Under the pieces are notes generated by a model. It did no database searches. It had not been told where the DNA came from and saw nothing but the letters and a program-made list of their open reading frames with translations. A DNA stretch of 31,164 nt. It comes from a virus. Numbering within the stretch: position 1 is the first letter of the stretch; every line of letters starts with the position of its first letter. The stretch spans positions 1-31,164 of IMG/VR virus record IMGVR_UViG_3300030098_003142. One strand, 5' to 3'. Position numbers and translations under genes: made by a program. Shown here in pieces: positions 993 to 30,443 of this stretch.

Positions 993-2573
993 ATGGCAGT
1001 AGAAAACAGTGAAGTATTTTTAGGAAGTGGGGCAAGTTTAACATTTGTTCCGGAAGTTGATTTTTATTTTCAACCAGCAACAACAAGTCAAACATCAATT
1101 CAATTGCATCAAACATATGCAATTCAATTTCAGTTAGTAACCAATATGTATGTTGGTTGTACACTGGATTGGTATGATAATGGTGTTTACACCTCTTCAC
1201 ATACTATTACTGCTAATGATAATGACACCTTTACAATTTCACCTGCTACGGCTAATCCAGTAGTTACTGCTGATGATTCATTTATTCTAAGAGGATATGG
1301 TGCGCCTTGTCCAGCACCAACAAGTTCTAATGATGCATCAGGTAGAATTAGGCTTCATGCTGATAATTGGCTTGGACTTGTAGAATCTGCATCATTCCCT
1401 AATGTTGAGGTAGAAATGAAACAAATGAATTTACAACTTGGTGGTTCAAGAAATTTCACACACCAATACAAAGGTATTGAAACTGCTAGTGGTGGAAATA
1501 TCAATTTAGTGGCTAATCATGTAACTTGGTTGTATTATTTCTTAGGAAAATGTTATTCGATTTCATTTGCTAGTGGAGTAAATAGTGCTCAACACCCTGA
1601 TAATTACCATACTGGAACTGCTGCTCATAGTCTATATATTCACGGAACTAGTTCAACTTCCCATATTGATACAGGGCCATTTGCCCATAGAGTTATTGAC
1701 CCTAATAATAGTGATGACCATTTAGTTCCACCAATTAATAATATTCTTTATTCATCACCTAATGTTGATTTTGATAGTGTAACTTATCCAGCAACGGATT
1801 CTACATTAGTCACTTATGAATTTAGAGAAGCAAATAATAGTGAATTGCCTTCATTTGCACTTGAACAATCTATAAGCAAATTAGGAACTAATCCTTTACG
1901 CACAGATACAGATAATGATGGAAGAGAAGATTTAAATTTTGTTAGAGTCGCTAGAGGAAATAGAGTTAATAGTATGACTTTAACTGCAAATGAAAATGAA
2001 GAAGTTAAAATGACCATGGATTTAAACACTAGAGCAGTTAATACTCTTGATAAAGCACAAACGGTTGGTTATGACTCAAGAGGGGGTCAAACTGATGAAA
2101 GAAGTTTATTTAACTTTACAAGTGATGAGGGTCATCTTGAACCTTTCTTTTTCTCAGGTGGAACTATTGAAGCATTTGGGGAAACATTAATGAAAATTAC
2201 TAACTTTACATTAACAATGAATAATAATCTTATGGATAAAAGATTCATCGGTGTTAGTGATAAAGGCATCAAATCAGCATTACCCGGCCAAAGAAGTTAT
2301 GAAATTTCATTGACAGCATTGGTTACTGATGATAAATTATTTACTGAATTGTTAAATAATGATGAAAATAATGAAACTACCGAATCTTTAAAATTAGTTT
2401 TCAAGAAGAATAGTGATTTAGAATCATTTACTTTAGAGTTTGATGATTATTTCCTATCTTCAAATAGTTGGACTATCCCTGATGATAAAGGGCCGGTTAC
2501 TGTTGAAGCAACATTAATGCCTAGAACATTAACTAGTTGTACTACTACTACTCATTGGATTTTACAGGGGTGA
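993..2573 (+). CDS. Major tail tube protein, with an inserted calcium-loop motif
   Basis: The product is 526 residues, longer than typical siphovirus tube proteins (about 150-300). The C-terminal half (about 275-520) is beta-rich and tube-like, with segments such as NSMTLTANENEEVKMTMDLN, GTIEAFGETLMKITNFTLTM and a final SNSWTIPDDKGPVTVEATLM, typical of the strands that build the hexameric tail tube. The N-terminal about 150 residues look like an added beta domain (surface decoration). Around residues 300-312 the sequence TNPLRTDTDNDGREDLN matches a thrombospondin type-3 calcium loop (DxDxDG..D). The gene lies between the probable tail terminator and the frameshifted tail chaperone, the expected place for the tube gene. 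The start has a strong ribosome site, AGAGGTGAAATT-ATG. A major capsid identity is unlikely given this context. Confidence 0.7.
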   Translation: MAVENSEVFLGSGASLTFVPEVDFYFQPATTSQTSIQLHQTYAIQFQLVTNMYVGCTLDWYDNGVYTSSHTITANDNDTFTISPATANPVVTADDSFILRGYGAPCPAPTSSNDASGRIRLHADNWLGLVESASFPNVEVEMKQMNLQLGGSRNFTHQYKGIETASGGNINLVANHVTWLYYFLGKCYSISFASGVNSAQHPDNYHTGTAAHSLYIHGTSSTSHIDTGPFAHRVIDPNNSDDHLVPPINNILYSSPNVDFDSVTYPATDSTLVTYEFREANNSELPSFALEQSISKLGTNPLRTDTDNDGREDLNFVRVARGNRVNSMTLTANENEEVKMTMDLNTRAVNTLDKAQTVGYDSRGGQTDERSLFNFTSDEGHLEPFFFSGGTIEAFGETLMKITNFTLTMNNNLMDKRFIGVSDKGIKSALPGQRSYEISLTALVTDDKLFTELLNNDENNETTESLKLVFKKNSDLESFTLEFDDYFLSSNSWTIPDDKGPVTVEATLMPRTLTSCTTTTHWILQG

Positions 2574-2740: not shown

Positions 2741-3121
2741 ATGTTTGAAGAAAAGAAAATAGTAAATAATAAGAATGACTTGTTTGTGGAAAGTGAAAGT
2801 GAATTGCATTATATTAAATGCAGCCCTGATTCAGATGAATATCTAAAAGTTTGGATTAAACAACCCACATGGTTACAAGTAGAAAAAGCCATGAATACGG
2901 TCTTAAAATTGGATGCTAAAACGCAATCAATGGATTTAGACTTAAATGCTATGTATCGCTACATGGTTGATAACTTTATTGACAAAACAGAGCCTTCGCT
3001 CTCTACTGTCGATTTATTACGACTCAAGCCCTTTGTGGGCAATCAATTGAAAGATATTCTCCCGAATCCTTTCCAACAGGAGGCTGATTCGGGAAAAGAA
3101 GAAAAATTAGAAGAGCATTAA
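2741..3121 (+). CDS. Tail assembly chaperone, short (zero-frame) form
   Basis: The product is 126 residues and acidic, with a beta-rich N-terminus (LHYIKCSPDSDEYLKVWIKQ) followed by helices. It ends in a Glu/Lys-rich tail at TAA 3119-3121. Position between the tail tube and tape measure genes, size, and the frameshift signal near its end fit the gpG-type tail assembly chaperone of siphoviruses, which binds the tape measure protein during tail assembly and is absent from the finished virion. The start ATG at 2741 follows GGAAGTGATTAA. The slippery heptamer sits in frame at codons 118-119, so part of the ribosomes should shift to the longer product described separately. Confidence 0.75.
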   Translation: MFEEKKIVNNKNDLFVESESELHYIKCSPDSDEYLKVWIKQPTWLQVEKAMNTVLKLDAKTQSMDLDLNAMYRYMVDNFIDKTEPSLSTVDLLRLKPFVGNQLKDILPNPFQQEADSGKEEKLEEH

Positions 3122-3309
3122 CTTCGGGAACAAAAGACCCGAAGTTAGGTTCTCGTCTAATTGTCTATGGTTTAGCACAGGCTTTCCAAATTAGCCCATT
3201 AGAAGTATATAAAATGCCAGCAAATTTAGTTAATGATATGATGTTAATACATATGGTTGCTAAAGAAATTGAAAAAGAAGAAATGGATAAATTAAGTAAA
3301 AAGAGGTGA
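2741..3309 (+). CDS. Tail assembly chaperone, long form made by -1 frameshift
   Basis: A second frame lacking its own good start is open from 3088 to TGA 3307-3309, overlapping the end of the short form. A -1 slip at GGGAAAA (3091-3097) would join residues 1-119 of the short form to 70 more residues (RRKIRRALTSGTKDPKLGSR and onward, ending KLSKKR), giving about 189 residues. The extension contains a helical segment, LEVYKMPANLVNDMMLIHMV, like the T part of gpGT fusions, which recruits tail tube subunits to the tape measure in phage lambda. Without a frameshift, this well-formed coding stretch would be unexplained. The tape measure gene follows 4 bases later, and its ribosome site AGAGGTGAA contains this stop codon. 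Confidence 0.8.
3078..3147 (+). promoter_or_regulatory. Programmed -1 ribosomal frameshift signal
   Basis: Three elements lie in a row. AGGAGG at 3078-3083 is a perfect internal Shine-Dalgarno sequence. G_GGA_AAA at 3091-3097 is a canonical X_XXY_YYZ slippery heptamer in the right phase for the short form. A perfect 10-bp stem (3119-3128 with 3138-3147, core AACTTCGGG/CCCGAAGTT) has a 9-base loop. The layout is like that of E. coli dnaX, and the heptamer is one base from lambda's GGGAAAG. The stem begins 21 bases after the heptamer, longer than the usual 5-9, and contains the zero-frame stop codon. Its role as a stimulator is therefore less certain than the slip site itself. Confidence 0.8.
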
Positions 3310-3313
3310 AGTT

Positions 3314-5044
3314 ATGACGTTTCTTAATGATTTGAATAGGGATATTGTAGATACCTATAAAAATCTAAATGATATGAATGAAACATTAGCCATGACTTTA
3401 CAAAGTTCTACTAAATGGAATATTGCTAGTCGTCTTTTATCAGGTACAGGTCTTTGGTCTGTTCAAAATAGGGTTCGTGCTTTAATTAGTATTGTTGGTG
3501 AATATCAAAGTGGACAAAGGAAACAATTAGAGGAACAACAGAAACAAGCAGAACTTATGAATAATTTGGCAGAACGCACTCAAAATTTACGAAATGCTCA
3601 AGAAGCGTTCGTTAATTCCATTGGTCATAATAGTCAAGCGATGGAACAATATAATGAAAATCTTAGAATAGCCATTCGTCAACAAGAACTTTTAGCCGCT
3701 ACTCATGCAGTTGGTTCTAGGCAATATATTACTGCACAAAATAATTTATCTGTACTCAATCAGACACTTAATGATAACGTGGCATTATTAGAACAAAGCG
3801 GTTCTGCTATGGAAGAACGTCAAAGAATAATGGACCATTATAACATGACAGAAAACGAAGCAAATCTATTAATAGGTTATAGATTACAGGCTATGGAACA
3901 AGCGGCTGATGCACAAGATTTATTATTGAGAGGAACTGAAGAATATAGAGAATTACAAGGCCAATTAATATTACAACAATATGAATATAATGACCAAGTA
4001 GACCATTTAGATGACCAAATAGATATGTATAGGGCTATGGCAAGAAATGAAGGAACATTTTTTGGTCGAGGAGGTTCTGTTGAAGGGCAACAATATGCAG
4101 CATTAGCAGAACAAGCAAGAATGCAAAAATTAGCATTAAAACAGCAAATGGTAAGAACTAAACTTGCTATGGCTTGGCAAAAATTAGGACAAAAGGCTAG
4201 ACAAATTTGGAATATTGTTAGAATGGCTGGTAGTATATTTAAAAAGGCTCTATTCTGGATTCCTGTACTTACCCTTTTCTTAGCAGTTACCTTTAAATTC
4301 CTTAGAGATTTTTGGCCATTTATTTCAGGGGCGTGGGATAAATTTTATGCACAATATCAAAATACTAATGAAACTATTGGAACATGGCTTGAAATACTTG
4401 GTGATATGTGGGAAGGAGTTAAGGCTCTATTTATTCATATTTTTGAAGGGAATTTATTAAAAGCGTTTACAGAAGGTTTATGGCCTATTCTTTTAGGAGT
4501 AATGAGGATTGGACTCAAAGGGTTTATTTTAACAGCAGGTATTTTAGGGACTTTATTGGTTGCAACAATATGGTATGTTGTAGATATAATTATTGGCTGG
4601 TACTCAATACTTTGGGGCGATTTTGATAGATTTGGAGAAACTCTAACAAAAATAGGAACTATTGTTACAATGATTGCTATGTTGGTCGCTTTTATTCAGT
4701 ATTATACAGGCGCACTTGCATTACAATGGGGAACCATAGGATTAGCACTTATGGGAGGTGTTGCGGCGATGGCAATTGGCGGAATGTTTGCTAAAGGTGG
4801 TGTAACATCAAAATCAGGAACATTTTTAGTAGGTGAAGAAGGCCCAGAATTAGTTAATTTACCCGGAAATTCAAGAATTCATAATAATCGCCAAACACGA
4901 GGAATGACAGGTAATACAATTAATGTTCATGTTAATGGGCGTGTTGGTGCTTCTGACCAAGAAATAAGAGATATTGCGAGAAAGGTTGGCGCACAGATTA
5001 ATAGGGAAATTAATAGAACAACAAGTTCAGGAACAAGGATGTGA
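3314..5044 (+). CDS. Tape measure protein
   Basis: The product is 576 residues. Residues about 1-300 are long helices rich in Gln, Glu and Ala (coiled coil). Hydrophobic segments lie around 311-335 (ALFWIPVLTLFLAVTFKFL), 388-430 and 445-495. The C-terminal part has the motif FAKGGVTSKSGTFLVGEEGP followed by ELVNLP, a hallmark of tape measure proteins. This protein sets tail length and is ejected ahead of the DNA. Using the usual 1.5 angstrom per residue, the tail would be about 85-90 nm, short for a siphovirus. It follows the frameshifted chaperone, as in almost all long-tailed phages. The start has AGAGGTGAAGTT-ATG. No lytic or peptidase domain is visible, which fits a host without murein. 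Confidence 0.9.
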   Translation: MTFLNDLNRDIVDTYKNLNDMNETLAMTLQSSTKWNIASRLLSGTGLWSVQNRVRALISIVGEYQSGQRKQLEEQQKQAELMNNLAERTQNLRNAQEAFVNSIGHNSQAMEQYNENLRIAIRQQELLAATHAVGSRQYITAQNNLSVLNQTLNDNVALLEQSGSAMEERQRIMDHYNMTENEANLLIGYRLQAMEQAADAQDLLLRGTEEYRELQGQLILQQYEYNDQVDHLDDQIDMYRAMARNEGTFFGRGGSVEGQQYAALAEQARMQKLALKQQMVRTKLAMAWQKLGQKARQIWNIVRMAGSIFKKALFWIPVLTLFLAVTFKFLRDFWPFISGAWDKFYAQYQNTNETIGTWLEILGDMWEGVKALFIHIFEGNLLKAFTEGLWPILLGVMRIGLKGFILTAGILGTLLVATIWYVVDIIIGWYSILWGDFDRFGETLTKIGTIVTMIAMLVAFIQYYTGALALQWGTIGLALMGGVAAMAIGGMFAKGGVTSKSGTFLVGEEGPELVNLPGNSRIHNNRQTRGMTGNTINVHVNGRVGASDQEIRDIARKVGAQINREINRTTSSGTRM

Positions 5045-5793: not shown

Positions 5794-6960
5794 ATGTCTT
5801 ATCAAGTTTTAGTAGGTGAAAGGAAAGCATTGGTCTTTCCTGTAATGTGCTATGGATATTTACGTGTAGATTATACCGATGAAATCGCTTCTAATAATTA
5901 TGGCCTATTTGACCATTCAGGCCCGATAACGATTCAAGCAATTGTAACACCTTATGATGTAAATGGGTTTGGCTATACTTTGGATTTAGATAATCCAATT
6001 GGGCCGATGGGTGTTACTAATTCTAAGAAAACCATGCCAGCCCAACAATCTAAAGCATTTACTTATCCTGATTACAGTGGTTCTGCTCAAACAATTGGTG
6101 AAACTAGTTATAGTCAATCATATCAATATTTAACCCCAACTGCGGCATTGACTCACGAAATGATGTTATTTTACAATACAAATATTCAATTGTCTTTATT
6201 AAATGCTAGTGCTGATAATGTAAATCAACCAGCAGAATATAAAATTAAATTTACAATTAATGCTAATGGGACTTCTGATACTTTGACTACTACTGACACT
6301 GTAATTAACGCAAATGATGTAGTTACTAATTTTAATGCTCAATACGGATATGATTCAACAAATGCTGGTGCTAAATATATAGCAATTGGGGCAATTGCTA
6401 CTGTTCCATCTTCGACAACATTTACAACATCATTAACTGAAGATGAAGTTTTTAATATTGGGGATAAATTGTATACTCAAAGTGGGGGAACATTTACACA
6501 TATTGCTACTGTAACGGGTGTAACAATGGACCCTAATTCTGATGGTGATTTAACAGATTCCTTTGTAACAGTTAGCCTTGAAGCCGGACAATCTCTTACT
6601 GCTTCTGCTTTGATTTTTGGAGAAGTAAATAAAGAAGCAAACTATTTAGTCACTCCTTTTCATATTTCTGCTTCTTATGACAATACAACAGGATTAATGA
6701 ATATTTATCTTAATGGAACTAGAGTCGCTTCTAAATACCATTCAGCAGAAGCCTCTCCTTTTACTGTTGAAGCAGAAGATTGTTATATTGGAGTTTCTAC
6801 TGATAATGCTAGTGCTTCAACGAGAAAGCAATTCATGGGAGAATTACATGAGTTAGCAGTAATTAAAGGTTCTGTCAATTCCTTTGTATCGACTAATACT
6901 TTATTACCTAACTATAGAAATATTTTACTATATTATAGATTTGAAGAGGTGGATGAGTAA
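5794..6960 (+). CDS. LamG/concanavalin-like tail protein
   Basis: The product is 388 residues. The C-terminal region (about 280-380) contains FHISASYDNTTGLMNIYLNG then TRVASKY and a late strand GELHELAVIKGS, the signature of LamG/ConA-like sugar-binding domains. The N-terminal strands (YLRVDYTDEI, PITIQAIVTPYDV, residues about 22-60) look like the front of the same fold, so the domain appears interrupted by about 200 residues. That interruption includes the module GDKLYTQSGGTFTHIATVTG, also repeated in the next gene. A longer start from TTG 5782 exists, but GGTTGAT-ATT-ATG makes ATG 5794 the likely start. Its role is probably glycan or surface-layer binding at the tail tip. Confidence 0.6.
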   Translation: MSYQVLVGERKALVFPVMCYGYLRVDYTDEIASNNYGLFDHSGPITIQAIVTPYDVNGFGYTLDLDNPIGPMGVTNSKKTMPAQQSKAFTYPDYSGSAQTIGETSYSQSYQYLTPTAALTHEMMLFYNTNIQLSLLNASADNVNQPAEYKIKFTINANGTSDTLTTTDTVINANDVVTNFNAQYGYDSTNAGAKYIAIGAIATVPSSTTFTTSLTEDEVFNIGDKLYTQSGGTFTHIATVTGVTMDPNSDGDLTDSFVTVSLEAGQSLTASALIFGEVNKEANYLVTPFHISASYDNTTGLMNIYLNGTRVASKYHSAEASPFTVEAEDCYIGVSTDNASASTRKQFMGELHELAVIKGSVNSFVSTNTLLPNYRNILLYYRFEEVDE

Positions 6961-9900
6961 TGGCTAACACTAATCTTTTTATTATGTCTAAGGGTTCTAA
7001 ACCCGGAGATACTCCTAGTGTTACTTCTAATCCAAATGCTTACTATGATACACCAACAAACCCATTAGTTATTTGTGATGATACTTTAACTGCTGATACT
7101 ACTGTTGCTTGTTATGAGATTAGAAATGATAATAGCCTTCCCAAAAATGGAAAACCCGTTGCTACGGGTGTTTTAGTAAATAATGGAAGTGGATATTCAA
7201 CAAGTGTATCTACTATTGTTGTTGATACCATTGACCCAAGAATTAAATTTAAAATAGGTCATCATGTGTATAAAAGTAATGGGACTTTATTGGGAACAGT
7301 TTCTAGTATGACTAATGTTGGGATTACATTTACTGCTAATATTTTAGCATCATTAGCAAATAATGATGAGTTATACACGGCTCAAGGTGTTAGTAATTCA
7401 GACGAATATAATATCCTCAATAGAATATATCCAAATACTGCTGCTACTTCTGAATTATATTTAGAAAATTTAGAAAATACTCCCGGATATAGAATTTTAT
7501 GTGCTACTTATCAAGCAGATGGAACAACAATTAATTTAGGTCAAAATATATCTTCAATTAATATTACAACTGATGATTATTTTGTTATGATAAATGCTGA
7601 TGACCCACTTAAGCATCATTTTGCTAAAATTACACATATAGATACCTCAGATGTTGCTGGGGATTCATTTGAATTTAGCCCTAAATATGGTTCAGAAATA
7701 TCTAAAGGAACTAAATTTACTATTTACAAAGGACCACCTGTAACTGATACTGCTGTTGTAGCCGTTAGTTATGGTTTATATGGTAATGCAGTTAATTATG
7801 GCACAGATAGCGACGAAACAGACGGAACCGGAACCGCAACAGATAGTAGACATTCGGGTATGACCTATATTTCTAAGCCTATTTTCTACTTCTATAATGA
7901 CAGATTGAATAAAAAGAATGAATTAGACCATAATACAAAGTATATGTTACATTATTCAAGAAGTGACGATGGCACAGAAACACATTATAAACGATGTTTC
8001 TTAACTTGTCAAGATTATGGGTTAAAGGCAGTTGATTACGGACCTTATACAATGAACGCAACTATGGTTGATAAATCAAGAGATTATGATAATTTCCATA
8101 GCAGCCTTGCTCTTTCTATTGCAATTGCTGATACAAGTGTAACAAATAGTTATAATTTTGATGCGGAAGATTGGGACAAGTGTTTTATTAATAATAAAAG
8201 ACATAATGGTAATTTATTATTTGGCCAAACATGGGAAGGTTCAGGTTCAGGTAATGTTCCTGAAGGTTCATTTGTAGGTCCGACAAGATACTTACATTAT
8301 GATACTTCACCTGAATTAAATAATATAGTTCCAGAAGTAATTGAGTTAGACGTATTTGATTCTATTAATGAATCTGGCGGATATGTTGATGCTAGGATTG
8401 TAGATTCTAAAAGGATATACGGTTCAAAAATTAATGAATATGATACTATTAAAGTTAAAAAATTAATTGATACAGGTTCTCTTTCTAATGATTATGTCGG
8501 TTTATTGCCGGGGAAATTTACTACTGTGGCAGGTGGTTCGCATATAGAGGTAGAATTAACTAATTCCGCTCAAGATATAAGAGTTTTATTAGGTACTTCT
8601 ACTACTTTTGAAGATATTAAAGTGGGGGATTATGTTTATTCTATTGCTAGTATTAGTACAGTAGTAAATGGTAGTCAACAAATTGAAGTTCTCGAAGGTA
8701 GATTATTTTCATCCCCATATTTTGATGGTACTATAACTACAACCCAAGAAACTTTAAGTGAGGTTAATGGATATAGAAAACCTTGGTCTAACCATATGAA
8801 TAATTTAATTGTAGATTTTACAATTGATACTACCGTCAATTATAGTGACCCACATACAATGTCTAGTATTGTTTATGGTAACAATACATCTACAACAGGT
8901 AGTGCGAGTGGAAGTAGATTATACAATGCGGAAATAGTTTTAACTAGCGGGCAACAAACCGGATTATCATTTAAAATTGATTACGGTGACAGTAATCATA
9001 ACATTATCACATTACAATCTCCTAGATTACAACTATATCGTTTAGAAACGGCTAATGACCCTAACTTTTTAAGTTATTACAATGGTAGATATAGTGTGTA
9101 TAAAACTATATTTGTGGGTGAAGTAGAGTCTTTAGAAAATTATGTTGAAGATGGTATGTTAAAATATCACCTTTCCGGTCGCAATAAAATTAATAAATTA
9201 CTTGGACCTATTGTAAATAAAAATTATAGACACACTGATGACATAATTTATTCTACTATTGGTCCTTTTGAACACATTACTAATTTAAGTTTTAGTTCTT
9301 ATATGGCAACTAATACTGTCAATATGGTTGGTAATACTGGGATAACAACATTAAGTACAATTACAGGTGTATCTATTGGTGATTTATTATTTACTCAAGA
9401 AGGATATTTTATTGGTAGAATTAAAGACTTAACGGGAGGAATTACATTAGAAGAAGGTAGTCTTGTTAATTTATATGATAGGGTTAATACTGATGCTCTT
9501 CAAACTTTATATGTTATACGACCAAATAGAAACTCTATTTCCTTAGCCAAAGCGATGTCAAAAAATACAGTAACTTCTAATTCAGTATCTTCATTAACAG
9601 GGACCGCTAATAAAGGTTTAATTTTTACAAACGGCAATAAATTAACTGATGATGCTTATGGTCGCCCAAATGTTGAAGGGAATACTTTAGCAGGTACATC
9701 TTCAAGCACTAATCCTAATGCTCTCGGTTATTATTTAAATCACCCTAAGTCAGTATCTAAAGATTCTGCCTTCTTTGTAGAATTAAAGGATGAATTAACA
9801 CCTGCAAATATTGAAAGACATACAGTTAATTCTTTAACTGAATATGAAGTTGTTAGTGTTACATCAGGTGAAGGTGAAACTATTATTGAAATTGCCCCTA

Positions 9901-12900
9901 ATTGTCCAATTATAATGGGAAGAATGGATGAAAACGCTGCTGATGTGAATATAGAAGATTTGACAATATCTAATTTTTCAGTTAGAGGTATTACTGATTC
10001 TTCAACAAGTAGTATTCCTGAAGGTCATTATTCAGGAATATGTATGCAAGGAGGAACGCCTAGTGCTGGTGCTTCTGAAGCATATACAGCATTTAATGGT
10101 AAACATTTATATTTATCAGATGGTACTTATTTAGGTAAAATTACCGGAACTGAACAAATAGCCAGTAGTACCTTTTGGATGGCATTTGATAGAAAATTGC
10201 CAAAAACAATAGCAACAGGAACATATATTTATACTTCAACAAATAAAAATCATGGATTATATTTAATCAATAGTCAAGGATTAAGAAGCGGCGGAGTATT
10301 GCAACTAGTAAATTCTGAATTATCTACTGAAGGCAGACCAATTATTTATAACGCATCTTTGGATACTAATTCTAATGGGAACCTAAATTTTAATGATTTA
10401 AGTTATAGACATGGTGGTTTTACATATAGATATCTAAATTTACAAAAAACTAATAAAGGAGGATTACATTATAGTAAAAATCTACTAGATACCGGAACCC
10501 CATCTAAAGTATATTCTAGAGAAAAAGGTGAATTTAATTCTTATGCTACTGCCTATAAAATTATTCCCGGAATTAAGACAGTACCTATTACTAATAATTA
10601 TGGAACAAATAATGATTATACTAATTCTTATGAAAAACAAGATTCGATAGATTCTAGAGGAATATTTTCTGCGGCAGGTGGTAACTTTGCAGACCACACT
10701 ATTTACCCAACAGGAAATTTGAACACCAAATATGATTTATTACCTAAAGTAAGAAGTCGCCTTTTTGGAGGTAATTGGAATACTGCAAAGGATGATGGTT
10801 CTAATGCAGGTGCTTTTTTCGGTTCTACCTTTGATGAAATCAAGGGAGTTCACGCAAATTCAGTAAGTAGAGTAAAAGATGGTTGGGAAATTATTGACCC
10901 TAAAACTATTACTACATTTTTATATTCACCTTCAGATTTTTGGCCTGATAGTATGTCAAGAGAACATCATATTGGGAATATTTCTAGAAATTTTTCTGAT
11001 TATAATATTATGTTAAGGGCTAAACCATCCTTAATTGCTTCTAATATGGAACATCAAAAATATAAAGGTTCCGCAAATTATATTGAAGAAAAGGATGCAT
11101 CATATCAAACCTTAAATATTTCAGCCGCAACAATTAATACTAATGAAATGAAAAGATTAGGTTTAATGAGATTAATTGAATGTACATACGATTGGCATTT
11201 TAATTTAGTTGACCCTGAAAACCCTCCTACTACTAAAGACGTTGTGGGGCAATTTACTTATGATAGATACCAAAAAGTAATTGCTTCAGGGATGTATGTT
11301 CAAACAGGCGGATATGCTACTAGTGATACTGTAATTACAACAAAAACTGCTTCAAGCGGAGGTGGTGCGGCAGACCCTAGTGTAAAATTTGCAAATGGTT
11401 ATGTGTACGATAATAAAGGTAATGCGATAGGATTTGTTAGTTCAGTAAATAGTACAACAATTACTTTAACAGCATCTGCCTATAAACCGAATGGTACATT
11501 ATATATTGGAGAACTTTATTATTTAAATCAAGCCGCTATCGGTACAAATAGTAAACCGCATTATCATTATATGGTTTCAGGAAGAGGTGGAAAATCTACC
11601 TTCTGTAAAGTAAATGTTAATTCTATTGGGAGAAAAACTTCAGGTGAAGACTATTATGATACTGATGCGGCTACTGATTCTTTACCATTACATATGTTAC
11701 AAAGCGGTGTTTTCAACACTAAAGGTGATGATGCCGATGATGGGTATGGTCAAGGTACAGGTAATGAATTTGATAATTATTTTGTAGGAAAAATGGATAT
11801 GGCTTTTAGTGATAACCATGACGTAGGAAAAGGAAATGTATTAGTTTTGCCCCCTGTATTCAAAGGTTTTGAGTTAATTAGTTTAGGATATAGATATGCT
11901 AGTGGTGGTGGGGCATATACCGCCGTTACTGCTGGTGAATGTAAAACTAATGCTGTTGCTGGTCAAAATAATATACATTATAGTAATAATACACCGTTAG
12001 ATGTAATAGACCAAGGACTTGGCGGCCCTTCAGGTGGTTCTGGAACTGCTTTAACTACTGGAAGTCATTTATTTACTGAAAATGGTGAATTTATTGGGGA
12101 AATAAGTACATTGGAAGTTGCTTGGCCTAATAGCGATGATACTTCATTTGTAATTTCTGGAGGACTTAAATGTGATGTAGAGGCAGGAACTGCATTATAT
12201 ATTGGTTTAATTCCTAATTCTGGTGGGGGATTTATTGGTGCAACAGGTGTTGAGTCAAGTTATAATAATGGCGGTTTCCATCCACTAGCAACTAAAGAAC
12301 TGGTTTCACATAATAATTCTCCCACTAATGAATTTGAGCACCCATCCAGAGTTTTAAGCGCATTAAAACATGATGTCCCCATTAGAGGAAAAGCAACAAA
12401 TGTTCAAGAATACTTTGTTCCAACTACTGTAACCGGAACAACTTATGCCGCAGTAAGTGGTAGTCCCGACACCATTACAAGTTCAGCAAATAATTTCATA
12501 TCTGCTGGATTTAAAAATGGTATGATTATTAAAGTTACAGGGTCATCTGAATCAGCAAATAATACTAGTCATATTGTTTCTAAAGTAGAAGCAGGTACAT
12601 TAACATTAAGCACCAATACATCATTAACTGATGATAGTGCAGGTGATAGTTGGACAATAACTGCTGTAACAGGACCATCACTTAAGAATAGTATCTACAA
12701 TAATATGAGAGCGGTAATTTTAAGAAGATTTTCGATTGAGATGACTGGTTCTGAAAAGGTAGATATTGGGGCATCTACATTATGTGCGACTAATTATACT
12801 GAACCTACTATTTTTAGAAAAATGGGTAATGTATATGAATCATCAGATACAGTATATAAACCCTCATTTTATGCAATTCATACTCCTCACGAAGTTTTTG

Positions 12901-14849
12901 CTAGATATAAAATTAGTGAAACTAGTTCCGCTTTAGAAATGAATGCAGGTAATGATAGTGGAACAGGCACAAATGTTGCTGATGGTGCTGATTTCGTATT
13001 AAAGCCTTTATTGGAAACAGATAACGCAAGTGTTACAAAAAATTATGGCTATATTAGTCCTAATGGGGAAACTGATTTAACTCAGTTAATTATTGACACC
13101 TCTTCAGCAGAAACAGGGACAGGGACAATTAGAACATCATCAAACAAGTGGTTAGAGTTTGTTCCCAATTTAACAGGTTGTTATTTGGTAAGTAATGATG
13201 GCATTAGAATTGAAGATTTAAATGTAAAAACAGGTAGTAATGATTGGGTAACAAGTATTGATGATAGAATGCCTAATAAAATACATTATATTGTTTCTCA
13301 TACTATAAGAACTGACAGTTACCCAACAGAACAAGGAGGCATATTTAACAAACATGTATTACTAATTGATAATTGTACCAATAGTGGAGAATTAGGCACT
13401 AATTATAGAATAATGAGGCCCGCCCATGTTTGTCTTTGGCCTGAATCACCAACTGAAATTGATTTATACAAATCAACAAGTAAATATACTAAAATGCCAA
13501 ATTCACCAGATATGTATGATGATATTGGCGATTTTTCTTTCTATGAAGATGGTTGGCTAAAAGGGGAAAAAAGTTCAGCAAATTATAATGAGGGTGTGCA
13601 ATCAATGTATGTTGTAGTAAATCCCGACCATACTTCAACTAGCAATAGATTTTTAGTTCCAAGAACCGTTTCTGGAAACCATGCTTCTAATTTATTTGGG
13701 GATGGAAATACCTTTAATAATGGTTCATATGATATGTTATTAAATGACGGTGTAAATAAATATAGAAGAACTGTTAAAATAAATACTGAATCTAAAAGTA
13801 CATATAATTACACTAGTATTGATTATAGTGAAAAACTTGATTCTAAAATGTCAGGAGTAGTTTCTTTAGGAGAAATATTTACATTAACTAGTAATCAAGA
13901 AGTTACATTAAATAATGTAGAAACCGCATCAATAGGCACAACTGTTTCTGTTGGTATGGAAGCGGAAGAAATTATTAATGATATTTTAGAAAATAATGAT
14001 ATAGAATATACTAATTCAACAATTAGTTATCCATATTTCACTACCCCAAATATCCAAGGTGCAGATATTTACAATTCAACAAAATTCTTAGCAGGTTTTA
14101 AAAATAAAGAACTATTAATAGATAAAGATGAAATTAAATTAATTGTTAATAATGATACAACTAGATATACTGATATAGAAATAAATGAAAATAATGATAA
14201 TATTAAAGTTGTTGAAATAGAACAAAATAAATCTGGGTTTGATATTTATAACGAAATCACTATTTACGGTAATGGTGTTAAATCCACAAAACAAAATGTG
14301 CGTAGTATTAAGAATATTGGAAAGAAAACCCTTGAAGAATTTGATGATAACTTATCTACGCAAACAGAAGTTGATTCAAAGGCTAGAAATTTATTAGATT
14401 TCTATAATAGAAATGAAAAAAGAGTAACAGTTAAATTATCAAATAAAAATTTAGAATGGATTAAATCTGGTGATATTATAGTAATTGATTATCCAAGTGA
14501 ACACATCCCTAGAGGAGATTATATTATTTTAGAAGTAAAACATGAAACATCTGGATTATTAACAATACAAGCAGGTGGTTATTCTAAAGCATTAGATTCT
14601 AGATTAGCAGAAATTATTGTAAATAACAAAAAGATGGCTTCTTTCCTAAGAAGTGATAGGTTTAAATCAAGTCCTATAAATTACAGTGACTTTGATTCAA
14701 TTAAACTTAAACCAATACGAATTATCGGCACAAAAACAAGTGTGTCAGGGCATACTCCATTAGGTTTAACTACTCTACTCGGCTTCGATACTTTGCTTAG
14801 AATAGGCACACGAACTACAAGTGAAGTATTAAGGGAGGATTTAATATGA
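6960..14849 (+). CDS. Giant tail hub / tail tip adhesion protein (2,629 aa)
   Basis: This is the largest gene in the window. Two distant parts look like a tail hub (gp27/Tal type). Around residues 455-755 is a domain ending in IFVGEVESLENYVEDG and LSGRNKINKLLGPIVNKNY. Around 2330-2560 is a domain with EAEEIINDILENNDIEY, DIYNEITIYGNGVKSTKQNV, SKARNLLDFYNRNEKRVTVK and GDIIVIDYPSEHIPRGDYII, matching the C-terminal hub domains of siphovirus tail-tip proteins. About 1,500 residues, rich in Asn, Thr, Ser and Gly, are inserted between them. They include repeated units of the type GxxLYxxxGxxIGxI at about 807, 1047, 1480 and 1701, with a related unit near residue 100. These are probably beta modules that reach or bind the host surface. 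No clear signal peptide or peptidase motif is seen. The start overlaps the previous stop (TAATG) after GAGGTGGATGA. Confidence 0.75.
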   Translation: MANTNLFIMSKGSKPGDTPSVTSNPNAYYDTPTNPLVICDDTLTADTTVACYEIRNDNSLPKNGKPVATGVLVNNGSGYSTSVSTIVVDTIDPRIKFKIGHHVYKSNGTLLGTVSSMTNVGITFTANILASLANNDELYTAQGVSNSDEYNILNRIYPNTAATSELYLENLENTPGYRILCATYQADGTTINLGQNISSINITTDDYFVMINADDPLKHHFAKITHIDTSDVAGDSFEFSPKYGSEISKGTKFTIYKGPPVTDTAVVAVSYGLYGNAVNYGTDSDETDGTGTATDSRHSGMTYISKPIFYFYNDRLNKKNELDHNTKYMLHYSRSDDGTETHYKRCFLTCQDYGLKAVDYGPYTMNATMVDKSRDYDNFHSSLALSIAIADTSVTNSYNFDAEDWDKCFINNKRHNGNLLFGQTWEGSGSGNVPEGSFVGPTRYLHYDTSPELNNIVPEVIELDVFDSINESGGYVDARIVDSKRIYGSKINEYDTIKVKKLIDTGSLSNDYVGLLPGKFTTVAGGSHIEVELTNSAQDIRVLLGTSTTFEDIKVGDYVYSIASISTVVNGSQQIEVLEGRLFSSPYFDGTITTTQETLSEVNGYRKPWSNHMNNLIVDFTIDTTVNYSDPHTMSSIVYGNNTSTTGSASGSRLYNAEIVLTSGQQTGLSFKIDYGDSNHNIITLQSPRLQLYRLETANDPNFLSYYNGRYSVYKTIFVGEVESLENYVEDGMLKYHLSGRNKINKLLGPIVNKNYRHTDDIIYSTIGPFEHITNLSFSSYMATNTVNMVGNTGITTLSTITGVSIGDLLFTQEGYFIGRIKDLTGGITLEEGSLVNLYDRVNTDALQTLYVIRPNRNSISLAKAMSKNTVTSNSVSSLTGTANKGLIFTNGNKLTDDAYGRPNVEGNTLAGTSSSTNPNALGYYLNHPKSVSKDSAFFVELKDELTPANIERHTVNSLTEYEVVSVTSGEGETIIEIAPNCPIIMGRMDENAADVNIEDLTISNFSVRGITDSSTSSIPEGHYSGICMQGGTPSAGASEAYTAFNGKHLYLSDGTYLGKITGTEQIASSTFWMAFDRKLPKTIATGTYIYTSTNKNHGLYLINSQGLRSGGVLQLVNSELSTEGRPIIYNASLDTNSNGNLNFNDLSYRHGGFTYRYLNLQKTNKGGLHYSKNLLDTGTPSKVYSREKGEFNSYATAYKIIPGIKTVPITNNYGTNNDYTNSYEKQDSIDSRGIFSAAGGNFADHTIYPTGNLNTKYDLLPKVRSRLFGGNWNTAKDDGSNAGAFFGSTFDEIKGVHANSVSRVKDGWEIIDPKTITTFLYSPSDFWPDSMSREHHIGNISRNFSDYNIMLRAKPSLIASNMEHQKYKGSANYIEEKDASYQTLNISAATINTNEMKRLGLMRLIECTYDWHFNLVDPENPPTTKDVVGQFTYDRYQKVIASGMYVQTGGYATSDTVITTKTASSGGGAADPSVKFANGYVYDNKGNAIGFVSSVNSTTITLTASAYKPNGTLYIGELYYLNQAAIGTNSKPHYHYMVSGRGGKSTFCKVNVNSIGRKTSGEDYYDTDAATDSLPLHMLQSGVFNTKGDDADDGYGQGTGNEFDNYFVGKMDMAFSDNHDVGKGNVLVLPPVFKGFELISLGYRYASGGGAYTAVTAGECKTNAVAGQNNIHYSNNTPLDVIDQGLGGPSGGSGTALTTGSHLFTENGEFIGEISTLEVAWPNSDDTSFVISGGLKCDVEAGTALYIGLIPNSGGGFIGATGVESSYNNGGFHPLATKELVSHNNSPTNEFEHPSRVLSALKHDVPIRGKATNVQEYFVPTTVTGTTYAAVSGSPDTITSSANNFISAGFKNGMIIKVTGSSESANNTSHIVSKVEAGTLTLSTNTSLTDDSAGDSWTITAVTGPSLKNSIYNNMRAVILRRFSIEMTGSEKVDIGASTLCATNYTEPTIFRKMGNVYESSDTVYKPSFYAIHTPHEVFARYKISETSSALEMNAGNDSGTGTNVADGADFVLKPLLETDNASVTKNYGYISPNGETDLTQLIIDTSSAETGTGTIRTSSNKWLEFVPNLTGCYLVSNDGIRIEDLNVKTGSNDWVTSIDDRMPNKIHYIVSHTIRTDSYPTEQGGIFNKHVLLIDNCTNSGELGTNYRIMRPAHVCLWPESPTEIDLYKSTSKYTKMPNSPDMYDDIGDFSFYEDGWLKGEKSSANYNEGVQSMYVVVNPDHTSTSNRFLVPRTVSGNHASNLFGDGNTFNNGSYDMLLNDGVNKYRRTVKINTESKSTYNYTSIDYSEKLDSKMSGVVSLGEIFTLTSNQEVTLNNVETASIGTTVSVGMEAEEIINDILENNDIEYTNSTISYPYFTTPNIQGADIYNSTKFLAGFKNKELLIDKDEIKLIVNNDTTRYTDIEINENNDNIKVVEIEQNKSGFDIYNEITIYGNGVKSTKQNVRSIKNIGKKTLEEFDDNLSTQTEVDSKARNLLDFYNRNEKRVTVKLSNKNLEWIKSGDIIVIDYPSEHIPRGDYIILEVKHETSGLLTIQAGGYSKALDSRLAEIIVNNKKMASFLRSDRFKSSPINYSDFDSIKLKPIRIIGTKTSVSGHTPLGLTTLLGFDTLLRIGTRTTSEVLREDLI

Positions 14850-21833: not shown

Positions 21834-22774
21834 AACCAACCCTCCACTTTATTAGAATCAGCACTATAATTTAATGCTGACTCAACTGCCGCAGGACAAA
21901 TATCCTGATAACTACACCATACACATTTCTTATGGAAATATGAAGTGGGGAACTCATCTAATTCATAAGCATAAATCAAATCTGCAATAGACTTGAGCAT
22001 GGCTTTTTCTGAACGAGTATTTACATCTTCCAAATAAATATGATTACTTGCTGGATAATACCAACCCCACTTAGTAACTTCTCCTTCCCAATCCTTTGAG
22101 GTGTCCATCAGTAATTTGTAGAAGGACATTTCTCTTCGCATAGTAGTTTTCTTACTATCTTTCCATGCACCTGTCTTTAATTCAAAGGGGATATAAATAT
22201 CCCCACTCTTATAAATCCTGTCAATAATTCCCTGAAGGTGGACAATATAATCTCGATTGAGAGGTTTCTTAGGGTTAGTATTTCTAGGAATTAGAATTGT
22301 AGCATCCAACATTAATTCATTACCTGCTGGCAACCACGAATCTAATATCCCACTATCCTTAAAATCAATAAATCGCTGAGCCTCATAAGCCGCAATATCT
22401 GCGGTCATATCTGTATAGTCATCAATAGGAAACAATGAAGAGAAATAATCAACCAAATCTGAATAATTCATTGGTTCTGCCTTCTTAATATCAACATCAT
22501 TATAAAATGCTTCATATGAATCATGTATAACTGTTCCTTTTGTCATGGCTTCAGTTTGCTCTTGTGGCCTTCTATCCATATATGAATATTCATATTGTTT
22601 ATTACACCACTTAAATGAACCAAGTGAAGATTTCGTAATCTTCAAAATTGGCTTTGATGGGTCATCTGCCCATTCTGCATTCCATTGATATGTATATTCA
22701 TCATCATCTTTAGGTTCAGGTCGAACCCAATTTCCTTCATCATCTTCGTAACCGTATGTTCTAATATATGTCAT
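21830..22774 (-). CDS. Cas4/RecB-like PD-(D/E)XK nuclease with Fe-S cysteines
   Basis: The product is 314 residues. Motifs in order: SSLGSFKWCNKQYEYSYM with Cys57; GTVIHDSYEAFY with His84; LQGIIDRIYKSGDIYIPFEL (D185) running into ELKTG (E198, K200); MRREMSFYKLL, the helix that usually carries QxxxY; and CVWCSYQDIC with C284, C287 and C293. The four cysteines should hold a 4Fe-4S cluster as in Cas4 and AddB. No CRISPR array or cas1/2 is present in the window, so it is a stand-alone nuclease, as in many archaeal viruses, likely processing DNA ends or recombination intermediates. The first about 45 residues are an acidic, Trp/Tyr-rich extension. It starts at ATGA overlapping the PolB C-part. Confidence 0.85.
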   Translation of the reverse strand: MTYIRTYGYEDDEGNWVRPEPKDDDEYTYQWNAEWADDPSKPILKITKSSLGSFKWCNKQYEYSYMDRRPQEQTEAMTKGTVIHDSYEAFYNDVDIKKAEPMNYSDLVDYFSSLFPIDDYTDMTADIAAYEAQRFIDFKDSGILDSWLPAGNELMLDATILIPRNTNPKKPLNRDYIVHLQGIIDRIYKSGDIYIPFELKTGAWKDSKKTTMRREMSFYKLLMDTSKDWEGEVTKWGWYYPASNHIYLEDVNTRSEKAMLKSIADLIYAYELDEFPTSYFHKKCVWCSYQDICPAAVESALNYSADSNKVEGWF

Positions 22775-23580
22775 TCTTCTTCACTTCCTAACCAATCGCT
22801 TAGATTTCTTTGATTTTCATCTATCATGAAATCTTTTATATTCCAACCCATCGCGTTGAAAATGGGTATTGCTTTCTTGACTACTGATTTGTAGGCATAA
22901 GCATCCCAATTAGGGAGGCATAAACCTTCAAATTCTTTTATTTCTTTAACAGAAACAAATTTCGCCAATCTATCTTTTGAGCCATCAGGCAACATAAACC
23001 ATTGTGGCCCTTCAATATGTCTACATTCCATATACAAAAATGCATCAGTTATTGGGTCATCAACATTAATATGTTGGTTATAATAACAGACCCCTGCTAT
23101 TCCACTCGACACAGATTTGTAACTACTTAAGGCTTGTCGTACTCTTCCTCTTTTGATAACATCAGTTAATGGTATTCTTCCCTTTTTAACATCATTATAT
23201 GTCTTTTTACAATAGGACATAACTTCATCATAAGGAGTAACTGAAGCCCACATTTGTAGCAAATTCTTTTGAAACTCTTTTCCAATTTTATTTTCACTAA
23301 TTCTCTTCATTGAAAAACCTGTTACAATGAACTCAGGTTCATCTAAATATTTACCATCTTTCCAAGAAATAAAACCTGCGTTTCTATTCTTTGTACAACC
23401 CACACCTAATGATTGATAAAACTTCTCAAATTCAAGTTGCACCGGATGGTGTTCTAAACCGAGTAAATTTGGAAATAATTCTTGAACATGACTATTCACT
23501 TCTTTACAAATTTTCTCAGCCTTTTCTACATTCTCAATAGGGACATAGATTGAATCTGTATGTGCATAAACTACTTTCAT
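22771..23580 (-). CDS. polB: Family B DNA polymerase, C-terminal part (motif C, thumb)
   Basis: The product is 269 residues. It begins almost directly with motif C (MKVVYAHTDSIYV): the usual YGDTDS reads YAHTDS, so the first Asp is His while the second, metal-binding Asp is kept. Next come CTKNRNAGFI (KKRYA-like), EPEFIVTGFSMKR and the thumb-region RIPLTDVIKRGRVRQALSSY with YKSVSSGIAG. The C-terminus QRNLSDWLGSEEE contains a PCNA-binding (PIP) box of archaeal type (QxxLxxWL, residues 257-264). It has its own strong ribosome site (AAAGGAGGAATTAG-ATG), so it is made separately and must associate with the N-part to form an active enzyme. The residues missing from this part are all present in the 24130-25749 gene. 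Confidence 0.9.
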   Translation of the reverse strand: MKVVYAHTDSIYVPIENVEKAEKICKEVNSHVQELFPNLLGLEHHPVQLEFEKFYQSLGVGCTKNRNAGFISWKDGKYLDEPEFIVTGFSMKRISENKIGKEFQKNLLQMWASVTPYDEVMSYCKKTYNDVKKGRIPLTDVIKRGRVRQALSSYKSVSSGIAGVCYYNQHINVDDPITDAFLYMECRHIEGPQWFMLPDGSKDRLAKFVSVKEIKEFEGLCLPNWDAYAYKSVVKKAIPIFNAMGWNIKDFMIDENQRNLSDWLGSEEE

Positions 23581-23876
23581 TCTAATTCCTCCTTTACTTG
23601 TAATAACTCTTCAATTAGTATATCAGTCGCCTTGATATATTGTGTGTAATCTATATGTGAAAACTGCAAATTTGGCCACTCATTAATTATGTAAAATAAA
23701 GCCCGTGTTCTTTTTTTTGCTATGCGAAATTGTTTCAATTTTTCACAATGGACTGAACAAAATTCACAGCGATTGTTGTTAGGTCTATCAGTTACGTCCG
23801 TTTCCTGAAGGACATGAGTATGCCCCGCGCAAGGTTTTCCGTTTGCCGATTTACCACTACAAATAAAAGAACTCAT
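23577..23876 (-). CDS. Zinc-finger protein inserted between the polymerase halves
   Basis: The product is 99 residues. The N-terminal half has a cysteine/histidine array: C6, C16, H19/H21 and CEFCSVHCEKL (C37, C40, H43, C44), probably a treble-clef-type zinc site. The C-terminal half is helical (TQYIKATDILIEELLQVKEE). It ends at 23577, overlapping PolB C-part by 4 bases (ATGA). No known family was identified; an HNH nuclease is not clearly supported, since no His-Asn-His order is visible. It is one of two small genes that separate the polymerase halves and may bind nucleic acid. Confidence 0.6.
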   Translation of the reverse strand: MSSFICSGKSANGKPCAGHTHVLQETDVTDRPNNNRCEFCSVHCEKLKQFRIAKKRTRALFYIINEWPNLQFSHIDYTQYIKATDILIEELLQVKEELE

Positions 23877-24130
23877 TTTTCTTCATCTCCTATATATTCC
23901 CATATTGTTCTAGTATCACTATGAGTATATCTCTCTTTAACGACAATTTCCTTGTCTGACCGTATAAGATTATGGCATCTATTCATACAAACTTTAGGGC
24001 TTTTAGTAACTCTTTTACCTTCGCTATTTGGATAAGAGTTTAATCTATCAGCCATTTGTTTGGTAGTAAATACCTTTAATTCTTTGGCTACTTTATTAAG
24101 TCTTTTTCTCATTATTTTATGTCTAGGCAT
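23873..24130 (-). CDS. Small winged-helix-like basic protein between the polymerase halves
   Basis: The product is 85 residues, basic at the N-terminus (MPRHKIMRKRLNKVAKELKV). It has a helix-turn-helix-like stretch, FTTKQMADRLNSYPNSEGKR, followed by a helix and a beta wing (KEIVVKERYTHSDTRTIWEY). This suggests a winged-helix DNA-binding protein. Start and stop are fused to neighbours: TAATG with PolB N-part and an ATGA overlap with the zinc-finger gene. Its ribosome site (CAGGAGATGG) lies in the last codons of PolB N-part. The family is unidentified; it might be a viral regulator or a remnant of a mobile element. Confidence 0.55.
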   Translation of the reverse strand: MPRHKIMRKRLNKVAKELKVFTTKQMADRLNSYPNSEGKRVTKSPKVCMNRCHNLIRSDKEIVVKERYTHSDTRTIWEYIGDEEK

Positions 24131-25749
24131 TATTCCATCTCCTGTACCTTGAACGCCGCCGCTCTAATTGCTTCTCTTGCACTTGCAGTAATTGAAGCCG
24201 CTAATGTAACATCAGCCCAACCAAAGCCTTGTTTAGCAATAACACCATAGAAAGATGCCATTAATCTTTTTACAGCCATTTGGTTATTATCCCACTTAAT
24301 ATATTCTTTCTTATCTTTGGCTTCCTTTCTTCTACGCTTATATTCATCACGCAAAGTTTTTAATTCCATTACAGCCTTTGGTAGAATGCCTAATTCGTCA
24401 GTTTTAAAATAAACCATGTGTTCTGATTTAGTTTCAGAGAAATCTCTTGGAATAGATAAGTTACACGCAAATTCAGTTGGTGTTGGACTTCTGGTTTCCC
24501 ATGAGATATTCCTTGCTAAAATCATACTTGGGTATAGACCTGCAAAATCAAATGCCGCAACATTCAAGTGTAATCCTTGAGTATTATGTTGCTCAGGCTC
24601 GAATATCATAGCACCTGTATATTTTTCTCTATCCCATACCTTCACGCCTGTTGGGGCTTTCCACCACGCATTACGCATAAAATAGATACTACCCATATTT
24701 GACACATAAAAACATGCATCGAATGGTGCAATAATCAATCGTTGTAAAGCCAATATACCTTCAGATAGTGCCATCTCTTCATCTATACGATAAAGTAATT
24801 CAACATCCACCCTCGCATATTCAAGATAATTCTCAGTATCTTCTAACCACGCTCTCTTGAAAAACTCATTCTTATCGGGGAATTTTTCTGATACTAGTTT
24901 CTTAGCACCCAATACTGTTTCTGATACATAGTCAAGAGCCAACGATGGTAATGTCCCACGTTGCGAATCATTCCATTGTCGCTCAAAAGCAAGGTCTAAA
25001 TCTAGTGTTATACGCCCCCGTATAGGTTGTTCGACTGGACTATAATTATCCACCTTCTCTGTAATCTTACCAAATTCAAGACCCTTCAATTCATTATAGG
25101 GTGAAAGTCCTCTTGGGTCAATATCATTATAGTCCATCCTATGAATCAACTTAGGCAAATCGAACTTCGACCCGAACCATGATATGAGCATATCAGGGTC
25201 TTGTTCTTGAATATCAGATATGAATTGCTCAAGCATTTCTTTCTCCGAAGATTCATCAGGGAACCATTTGTATATCTTATAATTATCAGTATAGTTATCA
25301 TACACGACAATACAAGTAATAGCATCCCCATGATTCGGGTCATCAGTAATCCATTCCATATCCCAATACCACTTACGCATATTATACTCAGGAATATTGT
25401 CTAACTTGTCAATACAATACCTGTAATGAAAAGGCACATCAGCCTCATAAGTCCTTGACCACAACTTCTTTGCGTACTTAATGTCACTTGGCTTTAGGAC
25501 TTCAACCTTTTTTAGTTGCTTTCCTTGTAGATTAACCCAATCACCTTGTTCGTAAGCAAAAGGATAAGTCAATTTATACCTCTTGCCTTCGATGGTTAGG
25601 CTCACGGTATAGACTTCTTCTTCATAATCAAGTTCGTTAATATAGAAGTATGGTTTGAAATCTTCAATAGTAGATTCCTGTCTATTACCTTCCGAGTCAC
25701 GCCATCTTAGATTGATTGCGTTATTTAATTCTGTATAACAAATAATCAT
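24130..25749 (-). CDS. polB: Family B DNA polymerase, N-terminal part (exonuclease, motifs A and B)
   Basis: The product is 539 residues from ATG 25749. Motifs in order: Exo I, KWYWDMEWI (D130, E132); Exo II, WFGSKFDLP (D197; the usual Asn is replaced); Exo III, YARVDVELL (Y311, D315); a palm lead-in MIFEPEQHNTQGLHLNV; motif A, DFAGLYPS (401-408); motif B, KRLMASFYG (494-502; NS replaced by AS). The chain ends at residue 539 in AAFKVQEME, the helix just before motif C. A GTG at 25758 adds three residues but belongs to the ribosome site GGAGTGATTAAT-ATG. It is the viral replicative polymerase with proofreading; it needs the separate C-part for the second catalytic Asp. No intein sequence is seen at its end. 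Confidence 0.92.
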   Translation of the reverse strand: MIICYTELNNAINLRWRDSEGNRQESTIEDFKPYFYINELDYEEEVYTVSLTIEGKRYKLTYPFAYEQGDWVNLQGKQLKKVEVLKPSDIKYAKKLWSRTYEADVPFHYRYCIDKLDNIPEYNMRKWYWDMEWITDDPNHGDAITCIVVYDNYTDNYKIYKWFPDESSEKEMLEQFISDIQEQDPDMLISWFGSKFDLPKLIHRMDYNDIDPRGLSPYNELKGLEFGKITEKVDNYSPVEQPIRGRITLDLDLAFERQWNDSQRGTLPSLALDYVSETVLGAKKLVSEKFPDKNEFFKRAWLEDTENYLEYARVDVELLYRIDEEMALSEGILALQRLIIAPFDACFYVSNMGSIYFMRNAWWKAPTGVKVWDREKYTGAMIFEPEQHNTQGLHLNVAAFDFAGLYPSMILARNISWETRSPTPTEFACNLSIPRDFSETKSEHMVYFKTDELGILPKAVMELKTLRDEYKRRRKEAKDKKEYIKWDNNQMAVKRLMASFYGVIAKQGFGWADVTLAASITASAREAIRAAAFKVQEME

Positions 25750-25754
25750 ATTAA

Positions 25755-25997
25755 TCACTCCAATGGGTCTTTAATCTTAATATCACCAAGAACCCAACGA
25801 AGTGCTTGGACAACACCTTGAAGGGCTTTGTAATTTCTTACGTGATATACTTTATCTTCTTTTCTTAAGGAGGCATGAGCCTGAGTTTCGTGGTGATTCA
25901 TTTTAAGTTCTGCTTTATTTAACATATCCTCAATTTCACCCCATGACCTATCATAAGTAAAAAGGTCACTATCTTGATGGTCACTTAATTCTCCCAT
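25755..25997 (-). CDS. Unknown 80-residue protein
   Basis: The product is small, acidic at the N-terminus, with His-rich stretches (KMNHHETQAHASLRKEDKVY) and a C-terminal helix around YKALQGVVQALRWVLGDIK. No family was recognised. It overlaps both neighbours, with TAATG at its start after GGAAGTGGAA and the PolB ribosome site in its last codons, so it is a genuine operon member between clamp and polymerase. A clamp- or polymerase-associated role is only a guess. Confidence 0.55.
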   Translation of the reverse strand: MGELSDHQDSDLFTYDRSWGEIEDMLNKAELKMNHHETQAHASLRKEDKVYHVRNYKALQGVVQALRWVLGDIKIKDPLE

Positions 25998-30231: not shown

Positions 30232-30443
30232 TTATTTTCCCCCTTAATAGAATAAGCACACATTTCATAAAAATAGTCAACAGGATAATTGTATTTAACA
30301 TGACTATCAATGAATGCTAATTTATTGATATTAACATTACCACCCATCCAATATAGTAACTGCTGAATGGGAGTTTTATCAATCTTCAATTGTCTTGCTA
30401 TCTCATCTCTATCAGGATTATTTAAAAATTCTTTTACATTCAT
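30228..30443 (-). CDS. Unknown 71-residue protein
   Basis: The product is small and mixed-charge, starting MNVKEFLNNPDRDEIARQLK; the segment DEIARQLKIDKTPIQQLLYW may be a helix-turn-helix-like fold. It overlaps the toxin-like gene's stop by TAATG after GGTTGAGGC. Position directly after a MazF-like gene would suit an antitoxin, but the sequence shows no MazE-like swapped-hairpin pattern, so this is only a possibility. Confidence 0.5.
   Translation of the reverse strand: MNVKEFLNNPDRDEIARQLKIDKTPIQQLLYWMGGNVNINKLAFIDSHVKYNYPVDYFYEMCAYSIKGENK

Follow-up and report, generated by a model that had tools for sequence, protein, structure and literature searches.

Comparative evidence for a programmed -1 ribosomal frameshift in the tail assembly chaperone gene of a putative archaeal tailed virus

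The virus record IMGVR_UViG_3300030098_003142 of IMG/VR (31,164 nucleotides (nt), analyzed over its whole length and referred to here as the window) carries a small gene, G, for a gpG-like tail assembly chaperone, and the end of G is overlapped in a different frame by a coding segment, T, that has no start of its own. This locus raises the question of how T is translated. The first-pass annotation of this DNA had proposed a complete frameshift cassette, and the comparison of the window with its relatives leads to the same answer: ribosomes very probably undergo a programmed -1 frameshift at the junction, in a tail assembly chaperone gene of the lambda G/GT type carried by an archaeal tailed virus. 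The heptamer, the overlap, the Shine-Dalgarno-like element and the stem of that proposal are each under selection in the relatives.

Frame relation, slippery heptamer and protein products

The core elements that the first-pass annotation had listed were all recovered from the window (coordinates in Table 1). The slippery heptamer G_GGA_AAA lies in phase near the end of G, AGGAGG is found just upstream with a gap of 6 nt, and the open -1 frame adds an extension of 70 residues, giving a predicted G-T fusion of 119 + 70 = 189 residues. No ATG, GTG or TTG occurs in the T frame of the window upstream of an ATG (about 3211) that already lies inside the conserved core.

Relatives were collected by five IMG/VR protein scans, one pattern scan and one genome-collection scan, which together yielded 202 unique G/T junctions; the T-domain alignment was too variable to be used as a seed for the collection scan. 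T lies in the -1 frame in 190 of these junctions and in the -2/+1 frame in the remaining 12. The observations that the first-pass annotation had named as telling against its proposal were not made in these relatives: G and T share one continuous frame in 0/202, an in-phase X_XXY_YYZ heptamer is present within the overlap in 202/202, and no consistent start belonging to T was seen. By chance, heptamers of this kind would be expected in about 6% of the overlaps, given an in-phase frequency of 0.9% per codon in the rest of G in the relatives.

The most frequent heptamers were AAAAAAC (95), TTTAAAA (22), GGGAAAA (20), GGGAAAC (17) and AAAAAAA (17), followed by the rarer types AAAAAAG (13), GGGAAAG (4) and GGGAAAT (2). 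A 110-member tree shows at least 5 replacements of the XXXY class and 20 of the full heptamer, indicating that the slippery motif has been swapped for other slippery motifs but never lost. Additionally, the T frame opens 0-3 nt upstream of the heptamer in 150 of 197 junctions, and entry into T is therefore possible only there or later. Relative to the conserved T domain, the window has its site farther upstream than most relatives with A_AAA_AAC do, and its Shine-Dalgarno-like element is displaced along with it. The A-site codon is AAC at 112 of the 202 sites, AAA at 59, AAG at 29 and AAT at 2, a set that leans to the eukaryote-like side, and archaeal tRNA-Asn may behave like eukaryotic tRNA-Asn at these sites.

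In PHROGs, the G family is matched to tail assembly chaperones (best 5.7e-8 among relatives). The AlphaFold model of G (predicted local distance difference test score, pLDDT, of 82) had as its two best structural matches in the PDB, both with moderate Z scores, YqbN (3klu, Z 6.8) and the HK97 tail assembly chaperone (2ob9, Z 4.4). Foldseek comparison of the same model with BFVD identified the chaperone of Haloarcula hispanica tailed virus 2 (E 8e-7) and, more weakly, chaperones of several phages, including Mu. The G profile gave no sequence match in the PDB, and the G, tube and tape measure proteins found no useful match among annotated phage records. Altogether, the model assigns G the fold of a tail assembly chaperone. 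T matched a PHROG tail assembly chaperone different from that of G, and only weakly (E 0.0013 to 0.005); its AlphaFold model is all helical (pLDDT 95.9), and Foldseek against BFVD returned weak matches only, mostly to unnamed viral proteins.

Putative stimulatory elements flanking the heptamer

The upstream element was scored in 105 representative loci by its best pairing with UCACCUCCU in the 24 nt ahead of the heptamer, and the null was generated by redrawing synonymous codons from the G genes. The mean pairing energy was -9.58 kcal/mol, compared to -5.67 +/- 0.19 kcal/mol for this null. At the third-last listed codon position, Glu is encoded by GAG in 47/50 cases (19% elsewhere) and Gly by GGG in 42/47 (18% elsewhere), and in 70 loci the match begins 12 nt ahead of the heptamer. 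These comparisons indicate that the Shine-Dalgarno-like element is selected at synonymous sites and kept at a fixed distance; a dnaX-type signal likewise has an internal Shine-Dalgarno sequence 5' of the heptamer. Shine-Dalgarno distances of 3 nt at +1 sites and of 9-14 nt at -1 sites have been described (PMC5009743); allowing for the different ways of counting, the 12-nt position is far from the former and near the latter. In HCTV-5, whose annotation joins the two genes in this way and whose heptamer is GGGAAAG, GGAGG is found about 10 nt ahead of the site, so that the element may be common to other archaeal viruses.

Downstream of the heptamer, the first-pass annotation had reported a perfect hairpin separated by an unusually long spacer of 21 bases. 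The hairpin does exist, but it represents only the upper part of the structure, and a lower stem had been missed. Once the lower stem is counted in, the spacer shortens to about 7 nt and is no longer unusual, the customary distance between heptamer and structure being 5-9 nt (PMC8211752). The full stem of the window (3105-3162), obtained by folding a longer stretch, has a predicted energy of -26.6 kcal/mol (z -6.3), and a shorter fragment of the window gave -22.7 kcal/mol (z -5.7). In the relatives the covarying stem starts about 6 nt past the heptamer, and the locus has the 3' stem-loop about 5-9 nt after the heptamer that characterizes a dnaX-type signal.

Folding of the 75 nt past the heptamer in the relatives gave a mean z of -3.09, compared to -0.75, 0.07 and -0.54 in three control stretches, with strong values (-3.4 to -3.6) at the A-type sites ending in AAC and AAG. 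When pairs were counted explicitly in 47 divergent A-type sequences, one antidiagonal stood out. Covariation over 14 stem pairs was 0.452, versus 0.266 +/- 0.014 after shuffling and at most 0.201 after sliding, and the doubly changed cells in these pairs numbered 128 where 60 were expected. The most variable pairs (columns 15-66, 18-63, 21-60 and 24-57) each connect one third codon position of T with another, which leaves the RNA free to change without change to the protein. Mapped through the conserved tyrosine codon of T, the window pairs 3108-3159 and 3111-3156 correspond to columns 15-66 and 18-63. RNAalifold called no consensus pairs in the 47-sequence alignment, and Rfam provided no relevant match. 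On this comparative evidence, the downstream structure is under selection in the relatives.

Slippage model and rival explanations

Comparison established how the two frames relate, that the heptamer is conserved, that selection acts on the Shine-Dalgarno-like element and on the stem, which also covaries, that G has a chaperone fold, and in which order the genes stand; from these results we infer slippage in the host and its efficiency, the exact role of each element and a lambda-like function. Most ribosomes would finish G at its stop codon (3119-3121). On a minority, base pairing between AGGAGG and the 3' end of the small-subunit rRNA, together with the stem-loop, would act as a brake; with both tRNAs on G_GGA_AAA, these ribosomes would slip one base back and go on in the T frame to produce the G-T fusion. 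By analogy with lambda, G may coat the tape measure protein, and the T part of GT may recruit tube subunits.

The rival that survives best concerns the 12 odd-frame relatives and not the window. These junctions (L016, L029, L082, L088, L117, L119, L126, L129, L144, L163, L333 and L421) keep the same GAAAAAAAG site and have the codons GAG GAT GAM GAA AAA AAG, after which T follows in the -2/+1 frame. The same site with T in another frame points to a change from -1 to -2 slippage inside a single virus group. The A-run measures 7 in 12/12, and one base fewer than in the -1 relatives is found downstream of the run and not within it, so that a homopolymer error does not explain these junctions. The tree requires three state changes between -1 and -2, at least two of them forced by well-supported branches. 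A +1 move would reach the identical frame as a -2 shift, and HSTV-2 is thought to use +1 (PMC5009743); a start of T at a nearby ATG might also be considered, as nearly all 12 have an ATG just past the A-run and all 12 have an in-frame ATG abutting AGGAGG. We regard both routes as possible but rather unlikely. The seven A's present in every case allow full re-pairing of both Lys tRNAs after a -2 step and keep the fusion length, whereas a +1 move would cost the fusion one residue and would have to operate although the Shine-Dalgarno-like element is at a far greater distance than the 3 nt described for +1 sites (PMC5009743). As for the nearby ATG, L082 has none past the run, and with AGGAGG immediately next to an ATG the spacing is not usable for initiation.

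For the window itself, T could be a separate gene that starts on its own after G. Short overlapping genes are common in tail modules, and 28 of 110 loci do have a T-frame ATG upstream of the heptamer or within about 40 nt past it. However, only 5 of the 110 combine an ATG with a plausibly spaced Shine-Dalgarno-like motif, the T frame of the window offers no ATG, GTG or TTG ahead of the conserved core, the conserved T sequence begins at the heptamer, and independent initiation would leave the in-phase heptamer unexplained. Internal initiation is thus very improbable here. An equally slim chance attaches to RNA polymerase slippage on A-runs as the event that joins the frames. Runs of 6-8 A in many relatives would suit such a process, but they are missing from the GGGAAAA site of the window and from the GGGAAAC and TTTAAAA lineages; moreover, all heptamer types fit a rule of tandem re-pairing by two tRNAs, and an upstream Shine-Dalgarno-like element and a downstream stem act on ribosomes. 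A sequencing error or a decayed gene, which the metagenomic origin of the contig could bring to mind, is a negligible prospect, given that many samples contributed the 202 distinct junctions, all with this split frame, and that the difference between the -2 group and its -1 relatives lies outside the A-run. Own start, transcript slippage and sequencing error were rejected as general explanations.

Several points weigh against a programmed ribosomal -1 frameshift at this site. The structure signal is weaker for TTTAAAA (mean z -1.9) and in one GGGAAAA subclade (GGGAAAA average -2.3), and the covariation alignment consists of relatives with A_AAA_AAN sites, so that the homologous stem of the window stands outside it. 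Related sequences are not independent, the anti-Shine-Dalgarno sequence used for scoring was assumed and not read from the host, and known families are matched by T only weakly at the sequence level.

Two further cases deserve mention as separate observations. L309 (3351-3580) keeps GGGAAAC while most of T is gone through an internal deletion, which could reflect a defective virus or an assembly collapse. L161 and L315 are two different chaperone loci about 91 kb apart on one contig (IMGVR_UViG_3300021958_000021, 184733 bp), which may be a chimeric assembly or two joined virus genomes.

Genomic setting, known frameshifts and implications

Genes follow one another in the order tube, one small open reading frame (ORF), G/T and tape measure, and the tape measure gene starts 4 nt past the T stop. 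Elsewhere in the tail region, positions 6960-14849 (+) form a single ORF of 2629 residues, the first 1000 of which lack a Pfam match. No capsid gene was recognized in the window.

Table 1. Features of the G/T locus and neighboring tail genes in the window.
Feature	Position	Strand	Basis
G, gpG-like tail assembly chaperone, normal-frame product, 126 residues	2741..3121	+	PHROGs, AlphaFold model, fold matches
AGGAGG, putative internal Shine-Dalgarno-like stimulator	3079..3084	+	Sequence; synonymous-site selection, 105 representative loci
-1 frame, open; stop 3307-3309	3088..3309	+	Sequence
Slippery heptamer G_GGA_AAA (GGGAAAA), in phase with G	3091..3097	+	Sequence
T extension, 70 residues post-shift	3097-3306	+	T domain in -1 frame in 190/202 unique junctions
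Lower stem, 5' arm (partner 3149-3162)	3105..3116	+	Fold; homologous stem covaries in relatives
Upper stem, 5' arm (hairpin of the first-pass annotation)	3118..3128	+	Fold
Upper stem, 3' arm	3138..3148	+	Fold
Lower stem, 3' arm, 2-nt bulge	3149..3162	+	Fold
Tail tube protein, upstream neighbor	993..2573	+	Phage_tube_2, E 3.6e-14
Tape measure protein, own Shine-Dalgarno AGAGGTGA	3314..5044	+	PHROG tape measure matches, E 1.5e-6; sequence

The view that this is an archaeal virus, already taken in the first-pass annotation, agrees with the archaeal-type replication proteins encoded in the window. The RFC small subunit is nearest to archaeal RFC (1.2e-51), PolB is nearest to haloarchaeal viruses, and an ERCC4 nuclease and a Cas4/PD-(D/E)XK-like nuclease are also encoded. 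The structural and replication halves lie on opposite strands with a strand switch near 17 kb, an arrangement described for magroviruses of Poseidoniales (PMC12999244), and in its archaeal replication genes and opposed modules the window resembles the order Magrovirales. An archaeal host is well supported by gene content; the virus probably infects marine archaea, and a Poseidoniales host is likely. The genome-collection scan found one real relative, L074 (NZMJ01000011.1), in a Maricaulis bin; this is probably a misbinned virus contig, and thus L074 does not name the host.

Other features were observed in the replication half. DNA polymerase B is split (22771-25758, -) into 24130-25758, with the exonuclease and N-terminal palm, and 22771-23580, which begins just ahead of the YxxTDS motif; two small ORFs, 23577-23876 (cysteine-rich) and 23873-24130, lie between the parts. 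In the RFC small subunit (29088-29942, -; 284 residues), the archaeal match spans residues 4-201 only, and the C-terminal collar has therefore diverged or been replaced. A PemK/MazF-like toxin (30443-30847, -; Pfam E 5e-23) adjoins small ORFs at 30228-30443 and 30844-31164.

Compared to the lambda G/GT pair (G_GGA_AAG), which has counterparts in most tailed phages, the window has the same gene order, a G-like fold, T in the -1 frame past a short overlap, and a heptamer of the same class that differs in the last base only. In contrast to lambda, the predicted host is archaeal, conservation extends to a clear internal Shine-Dalgarno-like element and to a long stem that covaries, and the A-site codon in the relatives is mostly AAC. 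E. coli dnaX, where A_AAA_AAG supports very high frameshift efficiency, has the same three-part layout (internal Shine-Dalgarno 5', heptamer, stem-loop 3') in a different gene and for a different purpose.

G/GT frameshifts in phages include -1, -2 and +1 versions (PMC5009743). The 12 odd-frame relatives would share -2 access to T with the phage Mu tail chaperone (PMC5009743), whose FS-gp41 is a weak structural neighbor of G; their site is A7 with a G after it, at the position where a -1 shift is predicted for close kin, and the window itself is predicted to use -1. This would not be the first archaeal case: earlier work had predicted a -1 frameshift in this gene pair for HVTV-1 and HCTV-1/2/5 (PMC8211752, PMC5009743) and for Hardycor1 (PMC7911831). 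Compared to these haloarchaeal viruses, the group of the window is AT-rich and consists mostly of marine contigs, its G is similar by fold and distant by sequence, and the evidence comes from 202 junctions instead of single genomes, with putative 5' and 3' stimulators and a probable -2 sub-lineage. No report of a frameshift in marine archaeal viruses was found within a partial coverage of the literature. The window is an additional, unusually well supported case of the known G/GT kind. Three things reach beyond the known cases, as judged by comparison: how strong the comparative evidence is, the selection on a Shine-Dalgarno-like element in an archaeal setting, and the apparent -1/-2 switch.

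Very few cases of programmed frameshifting are known in archaea, and a Sulfolobus fucosidase is the only one demonstrated experimentally (PMC8211752). Whether elongating archaeal ribosomes use an internal Shine-Dalgarno and a 3' stem for frameshifting and favor AAC in the A site in a eukaryote-like manner, and whether the same A7 site switched between -1 and -2 at least twice in a single virus group, three times on the best tree, with shift size following the position of the downstream frame, is a proposition that we hold to be evenly balanced. T in these viruses is missed by standard gene callers, which is a warning for their annotation. The junctions provide about 200 natural variants of one signal, whose 5' element, heptamer and stem could be taken apart and examined one by one in model archaea. 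A working Shine-Dalgarno-like element would mean that archaeal ribosomes recognize such sequences in elongation, and a -1/-2 switch at one site would be a natural experiment on what determines the size of the shift.
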